64,000 bases of DNA from Gammaproteobacteria bacterium. Its GTDB lineage: Bacteria; Pseudomonadota; Gammaproteobacteria; JAJPIJ01. The number at the start of each line of letters is the position of its first letter. Positions within the stretch are counted from its first letter, which is position 1. The translations under genes and the position numbers were made by a program. Shown one piece after another: positions 54,613 to 63,788 of this stretch. The notes under the pieces are model-generated. The model saw only the letters and a program-made list of their open reading frames with translations. It had not been told where the DNA came from and did not search any database. Where the stretch lies: positions 1 to 64,000 of the forward strand of contig JAJVIQ010000003.1 in assembly GCA_022071965.1 (NCBI GenBank), written 5' to 3'.

Positions 54613-56322
54613 CTATTCCGGCAGCGTGTAACGCGCATGCACCAGTTCCCGGATCATCTGGCGCGTTTGCCACGGCGCGAGGTCCGCGCGGCGCGCGATG
54701 CGCTCGGTCTCCTCCGCGAGATGTTCGTCCTTGATGCTATGGCGGAACCAGCGTGAGTAGTCGTCGCGCTGCAGATGGAACATCCATGTCTCCTCGTCGA
54801 TGCCTTCCGCCAGTTGGCAGAATACGGCGAGATTCTGCGCCTTGAGGTTATGGCGGCCGTTGGGACCACGGAAATAAAAACTGTGCCAGCGCAGATTGCC
54901 CTCGGCGTATTTGCGTCGGTGGCGGATGCGTTCCGCGCGTCCCGGCTGGGGGCGCATCGAAAAGGGAGGTTGCCGGTCGCCGACGAACCAGGCGACCACG
55001 CGGCCGGGCTGGTGCGCCAGGTCCTCGGGCCAGTGAAGCTCCTGGTTGGTCGCCCTGGCGAACTTGTCCAGCGTGGTTTCGGGTGAATGCCCGATGGCCA
55101 CGACGACGTCGATCGGCGCGAGTATCGCCGGGGCGACATGGTCGGGATGCACGGTGACCAGGATGGTCTCCCCGAGCCGGCGCGGCAGGGCCGAGGCGAT
55201 GTGCCCCCAGGTTTGCGGCAGCATGTGATGCGCCTCGTCCAGCACCAGCCAATGCGGCCGTCCGGTTCGGGTCCGCATCGCGTGCAGGTTCGGGACAAGC
55301 TGCGCAAAGAACCCGGGTCGATCCTCGAGCGGTATGCCGAGGAGATTGATACCCAGGTTGACCTTCGGGTCTTCCAGGATCGACAGCACCTCATTGACGC
55401 TCGGCGCCCGCCACTGATTTCCCAGCGTCACCACGTCGCGCAACGTTACGTAATCGCCTTCCGGATCGACGATGCAGACCTGGTAGTCCTTTTCGATCAG
55501 TCGCTCGATGAGGCCCGCGGTCAACATCGACTTGCCGCTGCCGGACGGCCCGGCGATCAGTATGTTCCGGCCGTAGGGCGCGACCTGCACAGCGGTTCCG
55601 TCCGGCCGGGTTCCCAGCAGGACCAGATGCTGCGGAAGGTTTCCCTCCACCCGCCGCAGATCGTCGGCGATCAGTTCGTCGATCAACTCGACGACGCCAC
55701 TGCCGTTTTCCGCCGCGGTGACGAAGGTCGCGTTTTCCTTGATGGCGGGCACGGCGTTGGCCACCGCCACGGCGCACTCGCAGCGCGCCAGGAACGAATG
55801 ATCGTTTTCGGCGTCGCCGACGCCCACCACTTCGTGGCGTGACAACCCGAGCTTGCGCAATGCATACCCGAGCCCGCTCGCCTTGTTGACGCCGGCGGGG
55901 AGCACCATGACGGCCTCGCGATTGCCGATCACCTGAGCCTCGAGGCCGAGATCCCAGACGACGTCTTGCACGGCCGTCCGGTGCGGCTCGAGCGTGGCCA
56001 CGATCACCTGCCCGACTTCGAGCGGGTTGACGCCGCGCGCCCGCAATTCCTGCAGAAATCGCCTGGACGGGGGGTTGGCGAGCGAGGTCTGTTCGCGGCT
56101 CGCGGGATCGTAAACGACCCCGCCGTTCTCCGCGACGATGAGATCGAACAGGTGCGCATGAGTGAAGGCCGCGAGCAGGTCGTGCAAACGCCGGCCGGTG
56201 ACCATGATGGCCCGCCGGCCCGAGGTTCGCAGCCGCGCGATCGCACGCAGCGCCTCGTCCGGCACCCGGTCCTGGGACGCCAGCGTCCCGTCGTAGTCCG
56301 CGACAAGAGCGAGATAACGCAA
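54613..56322 (-). CDS. HAD phosphatase fused to HerA/DUF87-like P-loop ATPase
   Basis: A 569-residue fusion. Residues 1-225 form a HAD-IIB (Cof/SPP-like) phosphatase with motif I DYDGT (Asp9, Asp11), the VTGR motif II, Lys147 and GVGDAENDHSF (motif IV, Asp170 and Asp174). Residues about 240-470 form a P-loop ATPase of the HerA/VirB4 (DUF87) kind with Walker A GPSGSGKS (258-265), IVDPEGDY, and Walker B WLVLDEAHH (358-366). The C-terminal 100 residues are Arg/His-rich (WHSFYFRGPNGRHNLKAQNL, RDDYSRWFRHSI). The start is TTG at 56322 with AGGAGG eight bases upstream. The role is unknown; it may couple sugar-phosphate turnover with an ATP-driven process. Confidence 0.8.
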   Translation of the reverse strand: MRYLALVADYDGTLASQDRVPDEALRAIARLRTSGRRAIMVTGRRLHDLLAAFTHAHLFDLIVAENGGVVYDPASREQTSLANPPSRRFLQELRARGVNPLEVGQVIVATLEPHRTAVQDVVWDLGLEAQVIGNREAVMVLPAGVNKASGLGYALRKLGLSRHEVVGVGDAENDHSFLARCECAVAVANAVPAIKENATFVTAAENGSGVVELIDELIADDLRRVEGNLPQHLVLLGTRPDGTAVQVAPYGRNILIAGPSGSGKSMLTAGLIERLIEKDYQVCIVDPEGDYVTLRDVVTLGNQWRAPSVNEVLSILEDPKVNLGINLLGIPLEDRPGFFAQLVPNLHAMRTRTGRPHWLVLDEAHHMLPQTWGHIASALPRRLGETILVTVHPDHVAPAILAPIDVVVAIGHSPETTLDKFARATNQELHWPEDLAHQPGRVVAWFVGDRQPPFSMRPQPGRAERIRHRRKYAEGNLRWHSFYFRGPNGRHNLKAQNLAVFCQLAEGIDEETWMFHLQRDDYSRWFRHSIKDEHLAEETERIARRADLAPWQTRQMIRELVHARYTLPE

Positions 56323-56757
56323 GGGAATGCCCTCCTGCGGCCCGGGGCCCGGCCCCGGGGGCGCGGGCGATTGGCCTTTTCCAATGCATCATGCGTGATG
56401 GCGAATTTACCACCAGCCGTGTGGGAAGGGTCGTTGACTGTCACCTCGCCGCGGCCGGGCGGCACCCTGCCCCGGGGTGCGCGGAACGCGAGCGCCGGCC
56501 GCTGCCCCCTCCGCGCCCCGGCCGAACCATTCACGCCTTCACCGGCAACGACCGAACGTGACTGACGCGAGTCACAAGCCGTACAATCCGGCCTCTTCGC
56601 GATATATGTGCAAGGAGCAAAGGTGCGTCACCTGTTGAGACAACGTATGGATGACCGACCCGCCTCCTGAACGGCAGGTCGGCGGTTCGAGTCCGCCGCA
56701 GGGCGCCATCTGGCCACGTATCCGCGACTCCCCGAGAATCACGCAGTGTTCGCCCGC
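56323..56757. other. Islet right end and tRNA-fragment region
   Basis: About 435 bases containing the tRNA-Arg 3' fragment (listed separately). TACAAT at 56582-56587 lies ahead of that fragment. An imperfect FNR-like palindrome TTGG-N6-CCAA occurs at 56371-56384 before the HAD-ATPase start, and GTGACT-N6-AGTCAC is at 56558-56575. No protein gene is supported. Confidence 0.4.
56649..56708 (+). pseudogene. tRNA-Arg 3' fragment (attachment-site-like direct repeat)
   Basis: Bases 56660-56708 match the last 49 bases of the intact tRNA-Arg gene (51727-51775) at 45 of 49 positions, in the same orientation and including CCA. The four differences include one in the anticodon loop (A37 to G) and one that breaks the acceptor stem. 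Upstream of 56660 the match fades quickly. A copy that starts at the anticodon arm and ends at CCA is what integration of a mobile element at a tRNA 3' end leaves behind. A decayed second tRNA gene is the alternative. Confidence 0.8.
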
Positions 56758-57969
56758 ATGCGCCTGGCCCGTCGCTGCCGGTTCACCTTCACCGCGGTGA
56801 TGGTGCTCGCCGGCCACGCCTCCGCTGCGGAGTGCGGTACGGATGCGCCCGCAGCGGCGGGGGACTGCGGCACCGGCCGCGCCGCGCCGATCCATGATAC
56901 CGGTCCGCTCCGGCTCCGCCATGCGGAACTCTTCAGCATCGAGTACTTTCCGCATTACAAGATCCTCACGGTCAGGGTGGCGCCGCAGGACCCCAGTCCG
57001 CTTCGGTACCTGCTGGTGCAGTGCGGCGCACGGCGCCCCGAGATCCCGGATATCGCGGCGACGGTGATCATCCCGGTGCGTTCGACAGTAGCCCTTTCGA
57101 ATGCCTACCTGCCTTTCATCTCCGCCAACGGCGCGATCGGAAGCGTAGCCGCGGTCAATCAGCACTCCCATGTGGGCGATCCCGGCCTGCGCGAGGCGAT
57201 CGAGCGCGGCGAGGTGCTGGAGGTCGGACGCGAAGGCAACCTCGATCGCGAGCGCCTCGCCTTGCTGAATCCGGGAGTGGTGTTCACCTATGGCGACGGG
57301 AGGCCCCCGGAATCCCTGGCGCCGCTGCTGCGGCTGGGAATGCCGCTGGTCGTTACATCGGAGTACCGCGAGGCGAGCCCGCTTGCCTACGCCGAGTGGG
57401 TGCTGTTCTTTGCCGCCTTCTACGACACCGAGGGCGCGGCGGCGGCGCACTTCGAGAACCAGTCGCGGCGTTACGAGTCGCTCCGCCGACTGGCTGCGAA
57501 CGCGGCGCCGAGACCAGCCGTCCTCGCAGGGGGCAGCTACCGGGGGAACTGGTACGTGCCGGCGCCCCGCAGCTACACCGCGCGCATGATCGCCGATGCC
57601 GGCGCGCGCTACGTTTTCTCCGCCCTGCAGCCCGACGATCAGGCCCATGAGACGACGATTGCGATCAGCCTCGAGCAGGCGCTCGCCTACGGACGCGGCG
57701 CCGATATCTGGATTGACACCATGGACTGGCGGTCGCTGGCCGAGGCGCGCAGCCAGGATCCCCGGTACGCGCTGTTCCGGGCGTTCCGGCAGCGCCAGAT
57801 GTACAACAATGACAATCGGCGGAACGCGTATGGCACCAATATCTTCTGGGAGGCTGGCCTGGCGGAGCCGGACTCGGTGCTTGCGGACCTGATCGCCATT
57901 TTCCATCCCGGGCTGCGCACCGGCCAGGCATTGAAATGGTATCGACGACTGCCGGAGGACGCGCCGTGA
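56758..57969 (+). CDS. ABC transporter periplasmic substrate-binding protein (metal-chelate/corrinoid type)
   Basis: A 403-residue exported protein of the FecB/BtuF-like binding-protein fold. The signal peptide is MRLARRCRFTFTAVMVLAGHASAAE. Family blocks include ALSNAYLPFISANGAIGSVAAVN, LLNPGVVFTYGD, LVVTSEYREASPLAYAEWVLFFAAFY, PAVLAGGSYRGNWYVPAP and the DADIWID-like GADIWIDTMDWRSL. This type carries ferric siderophores, haem or cobalamin. The GTG at 56746 is an alternative start. The gene overlaps the permease by four bases, and the transporter lies ahead of a cobalamin adenosyltransferase gene, which suggests corrinoids but does not prove it. Confidence 0.85.
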   Translation: MRLARRCRFTFTAVMVLAGHASAAECGTDAPAAAGDCGTGRAAPIHDTGPLRLRHAELFSIEYFPHYKILTVRVAPQDPSPLRYLLVQCGARRPEIPDIAATVIIPVRSTVALSNAYLPFISANGAIGSVAAVNQHSHVGDPGLREAIERGEVLEVGREGNLDRERLALLNPGVVFTYGDGRPPESLAPLLRLGMPLVVTSEYREASPLAYAEWVLFFAAFYDTEGAAAAHFENQSRRYESLRRLAANAAPRPAVLAGGSYRGNWYVPAPRSYTARMIADAGARYVFSALQPDDQAHETTIAISLEQALAYGRGADIWIDTMDWRSLAEARSQDPRYALFRAFRQRQMYNNDNRRNAYGTNIFWEAGLAEPDSVLADLIAIFHPGLRTGQALKWYRRLPEDAP

Positions 57970-59057
57970 CGGCCGAGCTGGCGGACCGCGAGCCCCCGCC
58001 ACGCTGGTCGTCACCGGCCTTCAGCGCCGCGGCGCGCCGGCGATTCCTGCTCGTGCTGCTGTGCCTGTCGGCGCTGCTGCTGCTCCTGGCGACACTTGCC
58101 TGCGCCTTTGGCTCGGTGCCGCTCTCGCTGGCCAGCCTCTGGCGCGATGACGCAAGTGGCGCCGCCGCGACGCAGGCGCGCCTCATCGTTCTGGAGCTGC
58201 GTCTGCCGGCCACCTGTACCGCCGCGCTCGCCGGCGCCTCGCTGGCGGTCAGTGGCCTGCAATTGCAGACATACTTCCGCAACCCGCTGGCCGGGCCATT
58301 CGTGCTTGGTGTGGACAGTGGCGCCGCGCTCGGCGTCGCACTGATGCTGATCGCACTGCCGGCGGCGCTGGCCGCCGATCCCGAACTCGCGATGCTCTCG
58401 GATCTCGGGCTTTCGGGCGCGGCGATTGCCGGGGCTGCGGCCACCATTGCGCTCGTGCTGATGTTCGCGCGCAATGTGCTGAGCGACGCAACGCTGATCG
58501 TCGCCGGGCTCATGCTGAGCCTGCTGCTTGCCAGCATGGTCAGCCTGCTGCTTCACTACGCCGACCCGTTCCGACTGCAGGCCTTCGTGCTCTGGACCTT
58601 CGGAACCTTCGCAGGCGTGCCCTGGCAACGCCTGCCTGCCTATGCGGCCCTTGCGTGCGCCGGGCTCGCGCTCGCCATCTGGGATGCCAGGAGCCTGAAT
58701 GCGCTGCAACTCGGCCAACTCACCGCCAGCACTCTCGGCGTGAACCACCACCACTGCCGGCGGCGCATCATTGCGTCAACCGCACTGCTGGCCGGCGCGA
58801 CGGTCGCCTATTGCGGACCGCTCGGGGTGATCGGCACCGCGGCACCGCATATCGCGCGCGGTCTGTTGCGATCGGCCGATCATCGCCAATTGATGCCGGT
58901 CACCGCCGCGGTGGGCGCCGCGCTGACGCTGCTCGCCGATCTCCTGAGCCGCCTGCTGGCGAACGAGGGGACCCTGCCCCTGAACGCGGTGCTCGCCGTG
59001 CTGAGCGCGCCGGTCGTGATCGCCGTGCTGGTGCGCTCGAACCGGTCAGGCTGGTAG
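57966..59057 (+). CDS. FecCD-type ABC transporter permease
   Basis: A 363-residue integral membrane protein of the FecCD/BtuC family with about nine to ten TM segments. It has the conserved RLPATCTAALAGASLAVSGLQLQTYFRNPLAGPFVLGVDSGAALG block near residues 70-115. The later CGPLGVIGTAAPHIARGLL contains the coupling-helix region (GxxPHIAR), and LPLNAVLAVLSAPVVIAVLVR ends the chain. The GTG at 57966 overlaps the stop of the binding-protein gene (GTGA), so coupling is tight. It stops one base before the ATPase start. Confidence 0.93.
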   Translation: MTAELADREPPPRWSSPAFSAAARRRFLLVLLCLSALLLLLATLACAFGSVPLSLASLWRDDASGAAATQARLIVLELRLPATCTAALAGASLAVSGLQLQTYFRNPLAGPFVLGVDSGAALGVALMLIALPAALAADPELAMLSDLGLSGAAIAGAAATIALVLMFARNVLSDATLIVAGLMLSLLLASMVSLLLHYADPFRLQAFVLWTFGTFAGVPWQRLPAYAALACAGLALAIWDARSLNALQLGQLTASTLGVNHHHCRRRIIASTALLAGATVAYCGPLGVIGTAAPHIARGLLRSADHRQLMPVTAAVGAALTLLADLLSRLLANEGTLPLNAVLAVLSAPVVIAVLVRSNRSGW

Positions 59058-59834
59058 ATGGCCGTGCCGCTGCTCGACGCCACCAACCTGATTACCGGAT
59101 ATTCCGGGCGCGGCGCATCGGCATCGGCCGTTTCGGCGATTGCATCCCTGCGGCTCGATCCACACGACCTAGTCTGCCTTCTGGGACCGAACGGCGCGGG
59201 GAAATCGACGCTGCTGCGCACCCTCTGCGGGCTGCAGGCCCCGCTGTCGGGAACGATCCGCGTCCGCGATCTGCGCCTCGAGCAGATGCCGAGCCGCGAG
59301 CGCGCACGCGTGGTCACCTATGTCGGCAGCGAGGTCGTGCCGGCATCACCGATCCGCGTGCACGAGTTCGTCGCCCTTGGACGGCACCCTCACCGCTCCG
59401 GATGGAGCCCCCTGGGGCCACAGGACCACAGGGCGATAGAGCGGGCCATCGAGGACGCCGGGATAGGCGCGATGGTCGACCGCGATGTCACCCGGCTCAG
59501 CGACGGCGAACGTCAGCGCATACTGCTGGCGCGCGCGCTGGCACAGGAGCCGACGCTGCTGTTGCTGGACGAGCCGACCGCGCATCTGGACATCGTTCAG
59601 CGCCGCAGGCTGGCGAGTACCCTGCAGACGGTGGTGGCGCGCGACGGCATGGCCGTGGTCGCCTCGACCCACGACCTCGATTTCGCGTTCGGTGCCTCCC
59701 GCCGTCTCTGGGTCCTGACTCGAGACCGCCACCTTTGCATCGACGCGCACACCTCGGGGCTCGATCGTGCAAGCATCGACGCCGCATTCGGCATTTCCGC
59801 GTGCGGACAAGGCATGCGCCATCCGCCGCCCTGA
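59058..59834 (+). CDS. FecE/BtuD-type ABC transporter ATPase
   Basis: A 258-residue ATP-binding cassette with Walker A LLGPNGAGKSTLL, Q-loop region YVGSEVVPASP (Gln replaced by Ser/Glu nearby), signature LSDGERQRILLARALA and Walker B LLLLDEPTAHLD, then the His switch STHDLDFA. The signature is LSDGE rather than LSGGQ, a variant common in FecE/BtuD-like proteins. It completes a three-gene importer with the upstream binding protein and permease. A transcriptional link to the next gene (gap about 75 bases) is likely. Confidence 0.93.
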   Translation: MAVPLLDATNLITGYSGRGASASAVSAIASLRLDPHDLVCLLGPNGAGKSTLLRTLCGLQAPLSGTIRVRDLRLEQMPSRERARVVTYVGSEVVPASPIRVHEFVALGRHPHRSGWSPLGPQDHRAIERAIEDAGIGAMVDRDVTRLSDGERQRILLARALAQEPTLLLLDEPTAHLDIVQRRRLASTLQTVVARDGMAVVASTHDLDFAFGASRRLWVLTRDRHLCIDAHTSGLDRASIDAAFGISACGQGMRHPPP

Positions 59835-59909
59835 ACCGCACTCCGCCTCGGGCTACTCCGGTCCATGCCGCGAACGGGTACACTAGCGGGGCCTGCCGGA
59901 CGAGACGCG

Positions 59910-60518
59910 ATGGCCATCAAACTGACGAGAATCTACACGCGCACCGGGGACGACGGCTCCACGGCCCTCGTGGGCGGCAGCCGGGTATCGAAGACCGATC
60001 CGCATGTCGAGGCGTACGGCACCGTCGACGAATTGAACAGCGTGCTCGGCATACTGCGCACGCTGATCGATCAGCGCGAGGACACCGGCAACCGCCTCGT
60101 CCGGGCGAGCATCGAGGACCTGCATCGTTTGCAGAACCTGCTGTTCGACATCGGCAGCCTGCTCGCCACGCCCGGCGGGGGCCGCTATGAAGGCATGCCG
60201 CAGGTCGTCGAGGCGGACATCACCTGGCTGGAACAGCGTATCGATGCGATGAACGCGGAACTCGAGCCGCTCGAGTCCTTCGTGCTGCCTGGCGGAGGCA
60301 TGCTCAACGCCCATGCTCACCTCGCCCGCACCGTCTGTCGCCGCCTCGAGCGCGTCCTCTGGCGGGTCCAGGACAGTGCCCATGACGTGCCTGCGGCGGT
60401 GCTGACCTTTGCGAACCGGCTCTCGGACTACCTGTTCGTCTATGCGCGCTGGGCCGCGCACTGCGGCGGCGAACAGGAATATCTGTGGGAGCATCCACTG
60501 AAGACCCGGGGGCGCTGA
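59910..60518 (+). CDS. Cob(I)alamin adenosyltransferase, PduO/MMAB type
   Basis: The enzyme transfers the adenosyl group of ATP to reduced cobalamin. The 202-residue protein has the ATP-binding YTRTGDDGSTALVGGSRVSK, AYGTVDELNSVLG, the LQNLLFDIGSLLATP helix, and the C-terminal LPGGGMLNAHAHLARTVCRRLERV and NRLSDYLFVYARWAA. The start MAIKLTRIYT at 59910 matches the family better than an in-frame ATG 15 codons upstream. Together with the upstream ABC importer it points to uptake and activation of corrinoids. Confidence 0.95.
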   Translation: MAIKLTRIYTRTGDDGSTALVGGSRVSKTDPHVEAYGTVDELNSVLGILRTLIDQREDTGNRLVRASIEDLHRLQNLLFDIGSLLATPGGGRYEGMPQVVEADITWLEQRIDAMNAELEPLESFVLPGGGMLNAHAHLARTVCRRLERVLWRVQDSAHDVPAAVLTFANRLSDYLFVYARWAAHCGGEQEYLWEHPLKTRGR

Positions 60519-60767
60519 TGCCGGCCGATGTGCGCGGCCGCCGCTGCGGACAGCGCGTGCATGCTGGGTTCCGTGCAAGGTTCTGAGCGGCCGGTCACGG
60601 ATCCCCTGCCGGCGGCGGTGTCATCGTTCGCCACATCGCCCTGCCGATGGCCGCGCGCCGCGATCGCGTCTAGCGAGGCGCCATCGCCACGAGGGTGCAC
60701 GCGCCGACCGGCCGGCACCCCCCGCCGCAAGGCGACACACACGATCCAAGCGACGGCCGCGCCGCAT

Positions 60768-62180
60768 ATGCCCGACACCCGTCCGGATGATGTCCGGTTC
60801 CCTCGCCGCACCCATCGCGCGGCGGACACCCAGGTATGCGCCCCAACGGATGCGAGACCGCGGGCACTCCGCACGCGCGCGATCGCCGCGCAGCGCCAGC
60901 AATGGGAGCCATACCTGTACATCGATCAGTTGCGCCTCATGCCGCAGCGCGGCCAACCGGGCCCGGGCTTGCGACTGCTGACCGCGATCTCGGTGGCGAC
61001 CGACGGCCGTCCCACGACCCGCTTCCTGTTACCGGTGCGGGAATCCCATGCGGAGTGCTGGGCGCGCATGCTGACCCAACTGCGAGGCGAGCGTCTCCCG
61101 GATCTGCGACTGATCGTCGCCGATGCCTCACCGGCCTTGCGCGCGGCCACGCTGCGCGCGTTCCCGCGCGTCCAGTGGCAGCAGTCGATACCGGCGTTCT
61201 GCGCCCGCGTGCTCGCGCAGATACCGTCAGGCCACAGGGTGGGCATCGCACGCCGGCTGCGGAACATCTATCAGCAGCCGGATCGAACCGCGGCGACCGC
61301 CCGCGCAATCGGTGTCGCGGCGCTGCTCGCGCGACTGGGCGACTGGTCCGGGGCCGTGTACTTCGCGAGCTGTTATCAGGACACCCTGACGTTCTACAGC
61401 TTCCCCGCAGCGGACTGGCAGCAGTTGCGGGAGCAGGAGACCAGCAATGAACTGCGCGGCAGCATACGCCGACAGCTCGCGCTCGACGGCCGCAGCGACG
61501 GCTGGCTTCTCGAGTGCCACGATGTCCCGGCGCACGCCATCCGTTTGCACCTCGTGGCGCCGGCCCCGGCCGCAACCGCTGCGGGTGGCTCGCCGGGCAG
61601 TGACGTCAGGTGCGAAGATGCGCCTGCCCCGGGCGCCCGCATGCCGCCGCGGCCGACGCCGGCGATCGCGCCAGCCCGGGGAGCGGAACCGACGGACCCC
61701 GATCCGACCTTGCCGCCCGGTCAGTCCCGGGTGCAGAACACGGCCGCGCGCGACGCCGATGGAACTGATCACGGACCGGCCGATCGCCACCCGGAGGCGC
61801 CTCCTGCCGGCAGCCCCGCCACGGGCCTGGCCCCGAGCCCGGCCTTGTACAGCGGGCTGGATTTCGTCGAAACCGAGCCTACCCAGCCGCCTGCGATCGG
61901 CATGGAGTACATCGAGGTGGAGGACCGCTACGGTTACACCGCGTTGTTCGAGCACGAGAGGCGCGCGGCCGCCCTCACCGCCGCCAGCGGCGGCCCGTGC
62001 GCTGCGCAGACGCCGGACTCGCGCCCGCGAGGTCGGCTCAGGCGCGTCGCCGACATGGTGCTCGGAACGGTGGGCATCGCCGCGCTCGCCCGACCGGGGA
62101 TGCACCAGGCGGCGGACGGTGGGCTGGCCGCGGCAGTCGAAAGCGGCGGCATGGCTCCTGCGCCGCCCGGACCGGCCTGA
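60768..62180 (+). CDS. Diverged IS256/Mutator transposase-derived protein
   Basis: From the ATG at 60768 the protein has 470 residues. Residues 44-237 align with the catalytic core of IS256-family transposases. WEPYLYIDQLRL (Asp53) corresponds to the first catalytic Asp, LRLIVADASPALRAA (Asp119) to the second, and FYSFPAADWQQLRE then SNELRGSIRRQ to the third region. Asp53-Asp119 spacing is 66, as in IS256. The expected Glu (108 further) is Asn227, with Glu228 next to it. The N-terminal DNA-binding half is missing and residues 265-470 are a Pro/Ala-rich extension. No inverted repeats were noticed. A further in-frame start at 60528 looks non-coding. It may be a domesticated protein. Confidence 0.7.
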   Translation: MPDTRPDDVRFPRRTHRAADTQVCAPTDARPRALRTRAIAAQRQQWEPYLYIDQLRLMPQRGQPGPGLRLLTAISVATDGRPTTRFLLPVRESHAECWARMLTQLRGERLPDLRLIVADASPALRAATLRAFPRVQWQQSIPAFCARVLAQIPSGHRVGIARRLRNIYQQPDRTAATARAIGVAALLARLGDWSGAVYFASCYQDTLTFYSFPAADWQQLREQETSNELRGSIRRQLALDGRSDGWLLECHDVPAHAIRLHLVAPAPAATAAGGSPGSDVRCEDAPAPGARMPPRPTPAIAPARGAEPTDPDPTLPPGQSRVQNTAARDADGTDHGPADRHPEAPPAGSPATGLAPSPALYSGLDFVETEPTQPPAIGMEYIEVEDRYGYTALFEHERRAAALTAASGGPCAAQTPDSRPRGRLRRVADMVLGTVGIAALARPGMHQAADGGLAAAVESGGMAPAPPGPA

Positions 62181-62212
62181 GCCCGTCCGGCCGCCGAGCG
62201 ACCCCCGCAGGG

Positions 62213-63529
62213 CTATTCCTCCACCCGCGCGATCGCCTGCTGCGAGACGCGCTCGGTCGTGACGGACAGCCGCTGGATCAGGGTCCGCAGAAATGCCTTG
62301 AGAAAGCGCACCTGGCAGACCATCGACACCTGGTTGATGACTGTCGAATTCAGCTTCAGCAGCGCGGTCTGGGACCTGGCGATGATGGTCGCGGTGCGGC
62401 GCGCGCGCGTCAGATAGCCCATCTCGCCGAAGCAGTCACCGGTCTTGAGCATCCGGAGATCCACGCCGGCCTTGCGCACCGTCACCTCGCCGCCGGTGAT
62501 GACGTAGAACGAGTCGTCTATCTCGCCCTCCACGATGATCTCGGCGCCGGGGGCATACTGCAGCCAGTTGCCCGCCCGTACCAGCTCCCAAAGCTCCGCG
62601 TCGGTGAAGCCGCGGAAGAACTCCAGCCGCTTCAGATCCGCGCACAGTTCCTCCGCGGCGATCTCCTCGCGCGGCTGCTCGAGCATGCGATCGAAGGCGC
62701 GGCTCAAATCGGCGGCAAACTCCATCGCGGTGGGATACCGATCCTGCATGTTCTTCGCCATTGCGCGGCGCACGATGGCCTCGAGTACCTCCGGCACGCC
62801 GCTGCGCGCGCTGGCCAACGGCGGGGCCTCCTCGTTGAGGATGCGGTGTATGAGGCGCGAGAAGCTCTCCGCCGTAAAGGGATGGCGACCGGCCAGCAGC
62901 TCGTAGGTCACCACGCCCAGGGAGAAAATGTCGGTCTGCGCCGTGAGGGAATCCTCGTTCAACTGCTCGGGCGACATGTACCGGGGCGAGCCGATCATGG
63001 CCATGGGCATCGTGCCCGTGGAGTCGTGCTTGCTCAGGTAGGCGATGCCGAAATCTCCGAGCTTCACATCGAGATCCGCGCTCAGAAGGATGTTGCTGGG
63101 TTTGATGTCCCGGTGGATCACGCCCTGGCGATGCGCGTAGTCGAGCGCCTTGGCCACCTTGAAGACGACCTCCACCACCTTCTCCACCGGCAGCAGGGAC
63201 TCCGGCCTGCAGTATTTCTTGAGGGTTTCCGCGCCCTCCACATGCTCCATGACGATGTAGCACTCCTCACCGTCCACCCCGGCGTCGTAGATCGCGATGA
63301 TGTTCGGGTGGGTGAGCAGGCCGGCGGTGTGGGCCTCATTGAAGAACAGCTTGCGATACTGCGCGCCGGAGCTCTCGTCCTGGAGCTGCTCGGCGTGGGC
63401 CACCTTTATGGCGACCCTCCGATCGACATAGGGATCATGGCCGAGGTACACCGTCCCCATGCTCCCGCGCCCGATCTCTTCCAGCAGTTCGTACTTGCCG
63501 AGGCTCTTGGTCTTGGTATCTGACGTCAT
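62213..63529 (-). CDS. Ser/Thr protein kinase with C-terminal cyclic-nucleotide-binding domain
   Basis: A 438-residue protein. Residues 13-285 form a Hanks-type kinase: glycine loop GRGSMGTVYLG, Lys42 (VAIKV), HRDIKPSN (139-146), DFG 159-161 and SPE 186-188. Residues about 300-425 form a cNMP-binding domain whose phosphate cassette GDCFGEMGYLTRARRTATI (363-381) keeps the FGE and Arg378 of cAMP-binding proteins. No TM segment is seen, so it should be cytosolic. Binding of cAMP or c-di-GMP-like ligands may control the kinase. The start MTSDTKTK at 63529 was chosen; the longer reading upstream has a different character. Confidence 0.9.
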   Translation of the reverse strand: MTSDTKTKSLGKYELLEEIGRGSMGTVYLGHDPYVDRRVAIKVAHAEQLQDESSGAQYRKLFFNEAHTAGLLTHPNIIAIYDAGVDGEECYIVMEHVEGAETLKKYCRPESLLPVEKVVEVVFKVAKALDYAHRQGVIHRDIKPSNILLSADLDVKLGDFGIAYLSKHDSTGTMPMAMIGSPRYMSPEQLNEDSLTAQTDIFSLGVVTYELLAGRHPFTAESFSRLIHRILNEEAPPLASARSGVPEVLEAIVRRAMAKNMQDRYPTAMEFAADLSRAFDRMLEQPREEIAAEELCADLKRLEFFRGFTDAELWELVRAGNWLQYAPGAEIIVEGEIDDSFYVITGGEVTVRKAGVDLRMLKTGDCFGEMGYLTRARRTATIIARSQTALLKLNSTVINQVSMVCQVRFLKAFLRTLIQRLSVTTERVSQQAIARVEE

Positions 63530-63788
63530 GGCGAGGGTCGCGGAAGACCGGGTCGAAGCGAAGTGCGCAGTCCTGGCGTCAGCGTCCCCGGCCGCGTGTG
63601 TTGCGAACCGCCTTTTGGGATACCGTCGCGGTTTGTGCGCCCGCAACAAAATCATAGACTAGCACACCGCCGGCATGGACGGGGCGTCCCGCGGTTGTAC
63701 TCTCCCATCTTCGGTGACACACTACTCTTTCAGGATGTGCGTGGATAAAGACCAATCGGGCATGCATATTGCGCGGGAGGCTGCAAAT

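Follow-up and report, generated by a model that had tools for sequence, protein, structure and literature searches.

A candidate host gene built on the catalytic core of an IS256-family transposase in one gammaproteobacterial genus

In eukaryotes the domestication of transposases is a well-documented process, and the prokaryotic cases that we found, TnpA-REP, TldR and Cas1, come from other families. TnpA-REP (RAYT) is an HUH tyrosine transposase, TldR derives from the RNA-guided TnpB and has lost nuclease activity, and the plant FHY3/FAR1 proteins bind DNA specifically as regulators. FHY3/FAR1 are host genes derived from Mutator-superfamily transposases and described as transcription factors (PMC13306707), TnpA-REP/RAYT is called the first prokaryotic domesticated transposase (PMC8266576), TldR is a bacterial or phage gene built for a new function from a transposon protein that keeps its binding (PMC13418256), and Cas1 is a prokaryotic domestication case from another family (PMC8987985). 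Our literature search, limited to open papers, found no case of an IS256 transposase turned into a bacterial host gene. The review PMC8987985 contains neither the word DDE nor RNase H, and the paper on prokaryotic Mutator transposases PMC3942029 contains no word beginning with 'domesticat'. For the IS256 family itself, PMC7780238 describes the solved relative ISCth4, with the catalytic residues D175, D241 and E348, C262 and H265 in a helical insertion, and three N-terminal domains (residues 1-56, 56-108 and 108-165); where transposases carry such an insertion, their C/DxxH motif is said there to be important for catalysis.

We analyzed a gene in the first 64,000 nt of contig JAJVIQ010000003.1 from a gammaproteobacterium, a stretch referred to here as the window (Table 1). 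The 470-aa product matches PF00872 (Transposase_mut), the sole Pfam family above the cut-off, with E = 3.2e-16 between residues 48-237 and profile positions 161-349 of 379, as well as a PHROGs transposase family across residues 48-235. It scored 62.3 bits against NCBIfam NF033543 (IS256), under the 150-bit cut-off, and is 22-28% identical to the IS256 proteins compared. An HMM made from 18 of these aligned to residues 22-236, with residue 22 at HMM position 135 of 400. The AlphaFold2 model has block-wise pLDDT values of 59-91 across residues 41-240, and most of the rest, including the part up to residue 39, is below 50. The best five Foldseek matches of this model were all ISCth4 (E = 1.8e-8 to 2.3e-7). 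In VIA-align, which re-examined the Foldseek matches only, residues 47-240 of the model were placed onto residues 169-374 of the ISCth4 chain with a Z of 13.5 (190 residues, rmsd 4.8), and the next rows were retroviral integrases at Z 7.4. ISCth4 was also the sole match at E<=1 in a sequence search of the PDB (E = 3e-6). The initial annotation, which had been made from the sequence alone, recognized an IS256 catalytic core and proposed a fold comparison as a check; the Pfam match and the likeness of the model to the ISCth4 catalytic domain bear it out, and residues ~22-241 are the catalytic core of an IS256/Mutator transposase. This core carries 26 Arg/Lys and 17 Asp/Glu.

Table 1. Coordinates of the gene, its parts and its immediate neighbors in the window
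Feature	Position	Strand	Basis or detail
Cobalamin adenosyltransferase, upstream neighbor, conserved in G001	59865..60518	+	Pfam
IS256/Mutator transposase-derived domesticated gene (candidate)	60768..62180	+	470 aa
Decayed remnant of HTH/linker end, residues 22-44	60831..60899	+	HMM from residue 22
RNase H-like core including the helical insertion, residues 45-245	60900..61502	+	Pfam, AlphaFold2, Foldseek, VIA-align, dN/dS 0.17
D53, first catalytic Asp kept (ISCth4 D175)	60924..60926	+	alignments
D119, second catalytic Asp kept (ISCth4 D241)	61122..61124	+	alignments
S140-A143 replacing C/DxxH motif (ISCth4 C262/H265)	61185..61196	+	alignments
N227 where ISCth4 has catalytic Glu E348	61446..61448	+	gapless alignment W217-R235
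E228, acidic, one residue off catalytic register, identical in both species	61449..61451	+	alignments
Pro/Ala-rich linker, residues 246-360, low pLDDT	61503..61847	+	composition, AlphaFold2, dN/dS
Conserved C-terminal segment 1, residues 361-402, predicted beta-hairpin 377-399	61848..61973	+	orthologue comparison, folding
Conserved C-terminal segment 2, residues 421-445, first basic, later hydrophobic, weakly predicted helix 422-440	62028..62102	+	
Ser/Thr protein kinase with cNMP-binding domain, downstream, convergent, conserved in G001	62213..63655	-	Pfam

Two of the three acidic residues are retained, and their spacing of 66, noticed from the start as IS256-like, equals that of D175 and D241 in ISCth4. 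The third position had been read as Asn227 with Glu228 adjacent, and the gapless alignment confirmed this reading. The column holds Ser in the orthologue described below and Glu in all 17 compared IS256 proteins reaching it; L053 stops at its locus end, short of this column, which leaves 17 rather than 18. A further loss, missed by the initial annotation, lies in the CxxH columns, where Cys is present in 18/18 and His in 17/18 of the IS256 proteins and both species have S140 and A143. Because the third acidic residue and the CxxH motif are lost in both species, the alignments argue against transposase chemistry. The 18 proteins were those of 12 loci plus six matches from the genome searches (L003, L014-L018); L051 was omitted from 13 loci as the same protein as L050, and L055, L056, L004-L009 and L057-L064 were left unaligned.

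The N-terminal side is reduced as well. Nothing remains of the dimerization domain or the first DNA-binding domain, and the HTH has shrunk to ~20-25 residues of its end, so the statement that the DNA-binding half is gone stands for most of it and fails for this remnant, as homology begins at residue 22. When the 18 IS256 proteins were compared with positions 60400-62400, the main match began within the ORF for 17 of them. The exception, L045, which itself appears to be out of frame in the N-terminal half, matched from 20 codons upstream of the ORF; the next L045 match was antisense (E = 0.002, low-complexity filters off).

The protein is extended on the other side of the core. The linker contains 24 Ala and 23 Pro in 115 residues, in agreement with the long Pro/Ala-rich tail of the initial annotation, which overlooked that two conserved segments (361-402 and 421-446) also belong to this tail. 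In segment 1 the motif G-[LM]-[DE]-[FY]-[VI]-E seems, by eye, to occur twice (G-L-D-F-V-E and G-M-E-Y-I-E), and its predicted hairpin reached a pLDDT of ~78-87 when the tail was folded alone and ~40 in the full-length model. The C-terminal region folded alone had a mean pLDDT of 54 and a pTM of 0.22. A search for a fusion partner or relative of residues 355-470 in 8 genomes at E<=10 found none beyond the two carriers. The best of the weak matches, and the one inspected, was in G017 (E = 0.003); it was discarded as chance because it lies on the strand opposite an NMT1_3-family gene (PF16868).

According to the ORF listing, the frame stays open further 5′, back to 60528. The region between 60528 and 60768 contains 16-nt and 1-nt gaps relative to the orthologue (2, 16 and 1 nt over ~250 bp upstream), which speaks against a start at 60528, and 60768 is therefore the likely start codon position. 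Visual inspection revealed no clear ribosome-binding site, and a promoter and terminator scan returned nothing. The GC content had been called normal; the gene is slightly off at 72.3% vs 67.6% for the window, with 69.0% in the core, while the GC3 of the core (83.6%) is similar to that of three measured neighbors (80.7-87.3%).

An orthologue with 77% identity is located at C6:56055-57449 of G001, the sole other member of the genus searched. Of the six neighbors tested, five adjoin it with their order conserved (the genes for the periplasmic-binding protein, FecCD, ABC, adenosyltransferase and kinase), and the sixth, the ORF at 54613-56322, had no match in the 19.9-kb G001 stretch. The frame is full-length in both species, which differ within it by a single in-frame gap of 4 codons; the decay of the frame in relatives that would speak for a dying element was not seen, and the gene is full-length and open, as first described. 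In pairwise NG86 estimates between the window gene and the G001 orthologue, dN/dS was 0.36 for the whole gene (bootstrap interval 0.27-0.47) and 0.17 for core residues 45-245 (0.09-0.28), within the range of 0.14-0.33 for five neighboring genes, the sixth being without a match. It was near-neutral in the linker at 0.75 (0.50-1.22), and the interval for residues 1-44 includes neutrality (0.42; 0.19-1.01). The tail segments gave 0.20 for 361-402 (0.05-0.61) and 0.17 for 421-446 (0.00-0.70), and residues 403-420 between them are unconstrained at 1.18 (0.37-5.58). By these estimates the core is under purifying selection, as are, less surely given the wide intervals, the two C-terminal segments. 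G001 thus carries the kind of same-locus orthologue with purifying selection that the initial annotation had suggested looking for. The dS was 0.30 in the core, 0.37 in the whole gene and 0.46-0.52 in the C-terminal segments; because the core value resembles the 0.23-0.31 of the neighbors, vertical inheritance of the gene with its surroundings fits the data. The whole-gene and C-terminal dS values exceed those of the neighbors and weigh against the host-gene reading. Orthology, the selection estimate and the losses all rest on this one species pair.

Outside the genus, the gene was not found in G002 or G003, both same-family genomes searched. No empty site was found in them: G002 has other ORFs beside the kinase gene, and the G003 contig ends ~900 bp past it. 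The adenosyltransferase and kinase genes lie on different contigs in both genomes. In the relatives search (95 genomes, 8 with matches), G001 alone had a full-length match outside the own genome, and a pattern scan of genome contigs returned one relative, the same orthologue on JAJVHZ010000022.1 ('Gammaproteobacteria bacterium isolate Bin_33'). Matches occurred in 8/369 genomes of a class sample and 7/398 of a phylum sample. Among the matches listed, those outside the own genome and G001 were core-only, all ending by residue 240, and the core-only matches in the class and phylum samples lay in frames open over 350-452 aa, the usual size of an IS256 transposase. In plasmids, 272 of 72,556 records matched, none over 80% of the query, and the best 10 of the 272 were annotated IS256 transposases covering 47-48% of it. 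The pattern scan of IMG/VR viral contigs gave no relative with the tail; the patterns of both scans came from residues ~18-46 alone, so that relatives differing in this part would escape them. Within the samples searched, of 95, 369 and 398 genomes, the gene appears genus-restricted.

We then considered whether the locus retains traces of mobility. The own genome (39 contigs, 98.7% complete) yielded one match at E<=10, so the gene is single-copy, and the multiple near-identical copies with terminal repeats that would have identified an insertion sequence were not seen. Terminal inverted repeats were assessed in flanks of ~220-270 nt against first-order Markov resamples of these flanks. The best flank-to-flank pair was reached by 38/60 resamples in the window and 44/60 in G001, and by 141/200 in a rerun on the window; none was above the resampled flanks in either genome. 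Neither TGTAAA in the 5′ flank nor TTTACA in the 3′ flank was found. Across 60300-62400, the repeat listing comprises 5 direct and 15 inverted pairs, and no inverted pair has arms in both flanks. One direct pair spans the gene (28 nt, 75% identity, 60659-60686 and 62228-62255), with its second copy inside the kinase ORF; it is not above chance, as the best flank-to-flank direct match was reached by 56/200 resamples.

The genome also contains a degraded IS256 fragment of 50 positions at G000:C1:349404-349547 (within L011:1444-1710, minus strand), located in an 88-aa ORF. Apart from the gene itself, nothing else in the own genome matches PF00872 at E<=0.01, and the fragment is an example of a decaying IS256 in the same genome.

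The genes on either side are those named by the initial annotation, a cobalamin gene and a kinase; the former is now assigned as a cobalamin adenosyltransferase, the latter as a Ser/Thr kinase that also has a cNMP-binding domain. The closest relatives of the kinase in G002 and G003 are 66-67% identical, and because these genomes lack the gene, the kinase seems able to do without it. In each of the four same-family genomes searched, the kinase with its cNMP-binding domain has four or five matches at E<=1e-60, one of them at G000:C1:65445-66764, just beyond the window end. PADLOC assigned no defense family to the 470-aa protein; its matches on the kinase (PD-T4-6 and others) were taken as general kinase similarity. 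Upstream, at 56746-60518 (+), a row of genes for a periplasmic-binding protein, FecCD, ABC and the cobalamin adenosyltransferase is B12-uptake-like. At the gathering score, Rfam found two tRNAs only in the window and no cobalamin riboswitch. The 569-aa ORF at 54613-56322 (-) combines a HAD-type hydrolase with a HerA/TraG-like ATPase domain, a pairing that looks unusual.

Taken together, the fold, the same-locus orthologue under selection and the absence of terminal repeats support the original view that the gene was exapted for a cellular function and is not an active insertion sequence. We consider it probable that this is a genus-specific host gene exapted from a disarmed IS256 transposase, perhaps a non-catalytic adaptor or regulator. 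On present evidence, the ancestor of a single genus of gammaproteobacteria would have exapted an IS256-family transposase, which lost transposon-end recognition, the third acidic residue and CxxH, kept its RNase H-like core by selection, and gained a disordered linker with two conserved C-terminal segments. The protein would no longer cut or join DNA; its Arg-rich core may bind a partner protein or nucleic acid, while on their flexible tether the hairpin and helix of the C-terminal part could recruit another factor. The adaptor or regulator role in particular, binding without cutting, is weakly suggested by the retained fold, the excess of Arg/Lys over Asp/Glu and the tethered conserved segments. 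A more detailed version, in which the core is a non-catalytic clamp for nucleic acid or protein and the C-terminal hairpin with the preceding T-E-P-T-Q-P-P stretch is a docking site, possibly phosphorylated by the adjacent Ser/Thr kinase and wired into the signaling or cobalamin circuit of the genus, is decidedly unlikely as a whole.

The residues that remain in the active site leave room for another kind of host gene. D53, D119 and E228 are kept in both species, so that some residual metal-dependent activity may persist, and a domesticated but still metal-dependent nuclease could use E228 in place of the catalytic Glu through a one-residue helix shift. The intact core fold in the model and the identity of E228, next to an N227 that varies to Ser, favor such an enzyme. 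Because the alignment is gapless over W217-R235, however, E228 would sit ~100 degrees round an alpha helix from the catalytic position, and CxxH and the end-recognition domains are gone as well; we regard a nuclease as possible but unlikely. Truncated, inactive transposases can also inhibit transposition by entering dead mixed complexes, and the gene might poison related IS256 elements in this way. Yet the dimerization and DNA-binding domains needed to join a complex and hold the ends are missing, the other IS256 match of the own genome is the 50-position fragment, and the only match in G001 at E<=0.001 is the orthologue itself, which makes an inhibitor very unlikely.

If the gene is instead an ordinary insertion sequence in decay, caught early with its frame still open, the transposase homology would be expected, and so would the missing N-terminal half and the lack of detectable ends. 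A core dN/dS of 0.17 and frames of full length at the same locus in two species, differing by an in-frame gap only, speak against this, as does the form that a truly decayed IS256 piece takes in the same genome, confined to an 88-aa ORF; the reading is highly improbable. Least credible is an active, divergent IS256-type element with cryptic ends, to which the core homology, the D-D spacing of 66 and the direct repeat flanking the gene might point. That repeat is within chance and its second copy lies within the kinase ORF, no terminal inverted repeat exceeds the resampled flanks, the gene is single-copy and occupies the same locus in two species, and the catalytic Glu and CxxH are lost, so that an active element is scarcely conceivable.

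Compared with described systems, the putative host gene is closest to the IS256-family transposases (p-MULT 1; ISCth4 TnpA, PDB 6xg8, 6xgw and 6xgx), with which it shares the RNase H-like core and helical insertion and, in the case of ISCth4, the D-D spacing and the fold (Z 12.5-13.5). It differs from IS256 and ISCth4 in lacking the catalytic Glu, CxxH, the dimerization domain, the first DNA-binding domain and most of the HTH, in the added linker and C-terminal segments, in its single copy and in having no detected inverted repeats. These losses and gains can be read in one gene of one genus, and so provide a small, self-contained example in which to ask what value such a core retains for its host when it can probably no longer cut DNA. 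Like FHY3/FAR1, it would be a Mutator-superfamily transposase turned host gene; unlike these eukaryotic genes, it has lost the known DNA-binding domains and probably represents an independent event. Like TnpA-REP/RAYT and TldR, it appears to be a gene for a new function built from a transposon protein, whereas those two belong to other enzyme families and folds and their DNA targets are known.
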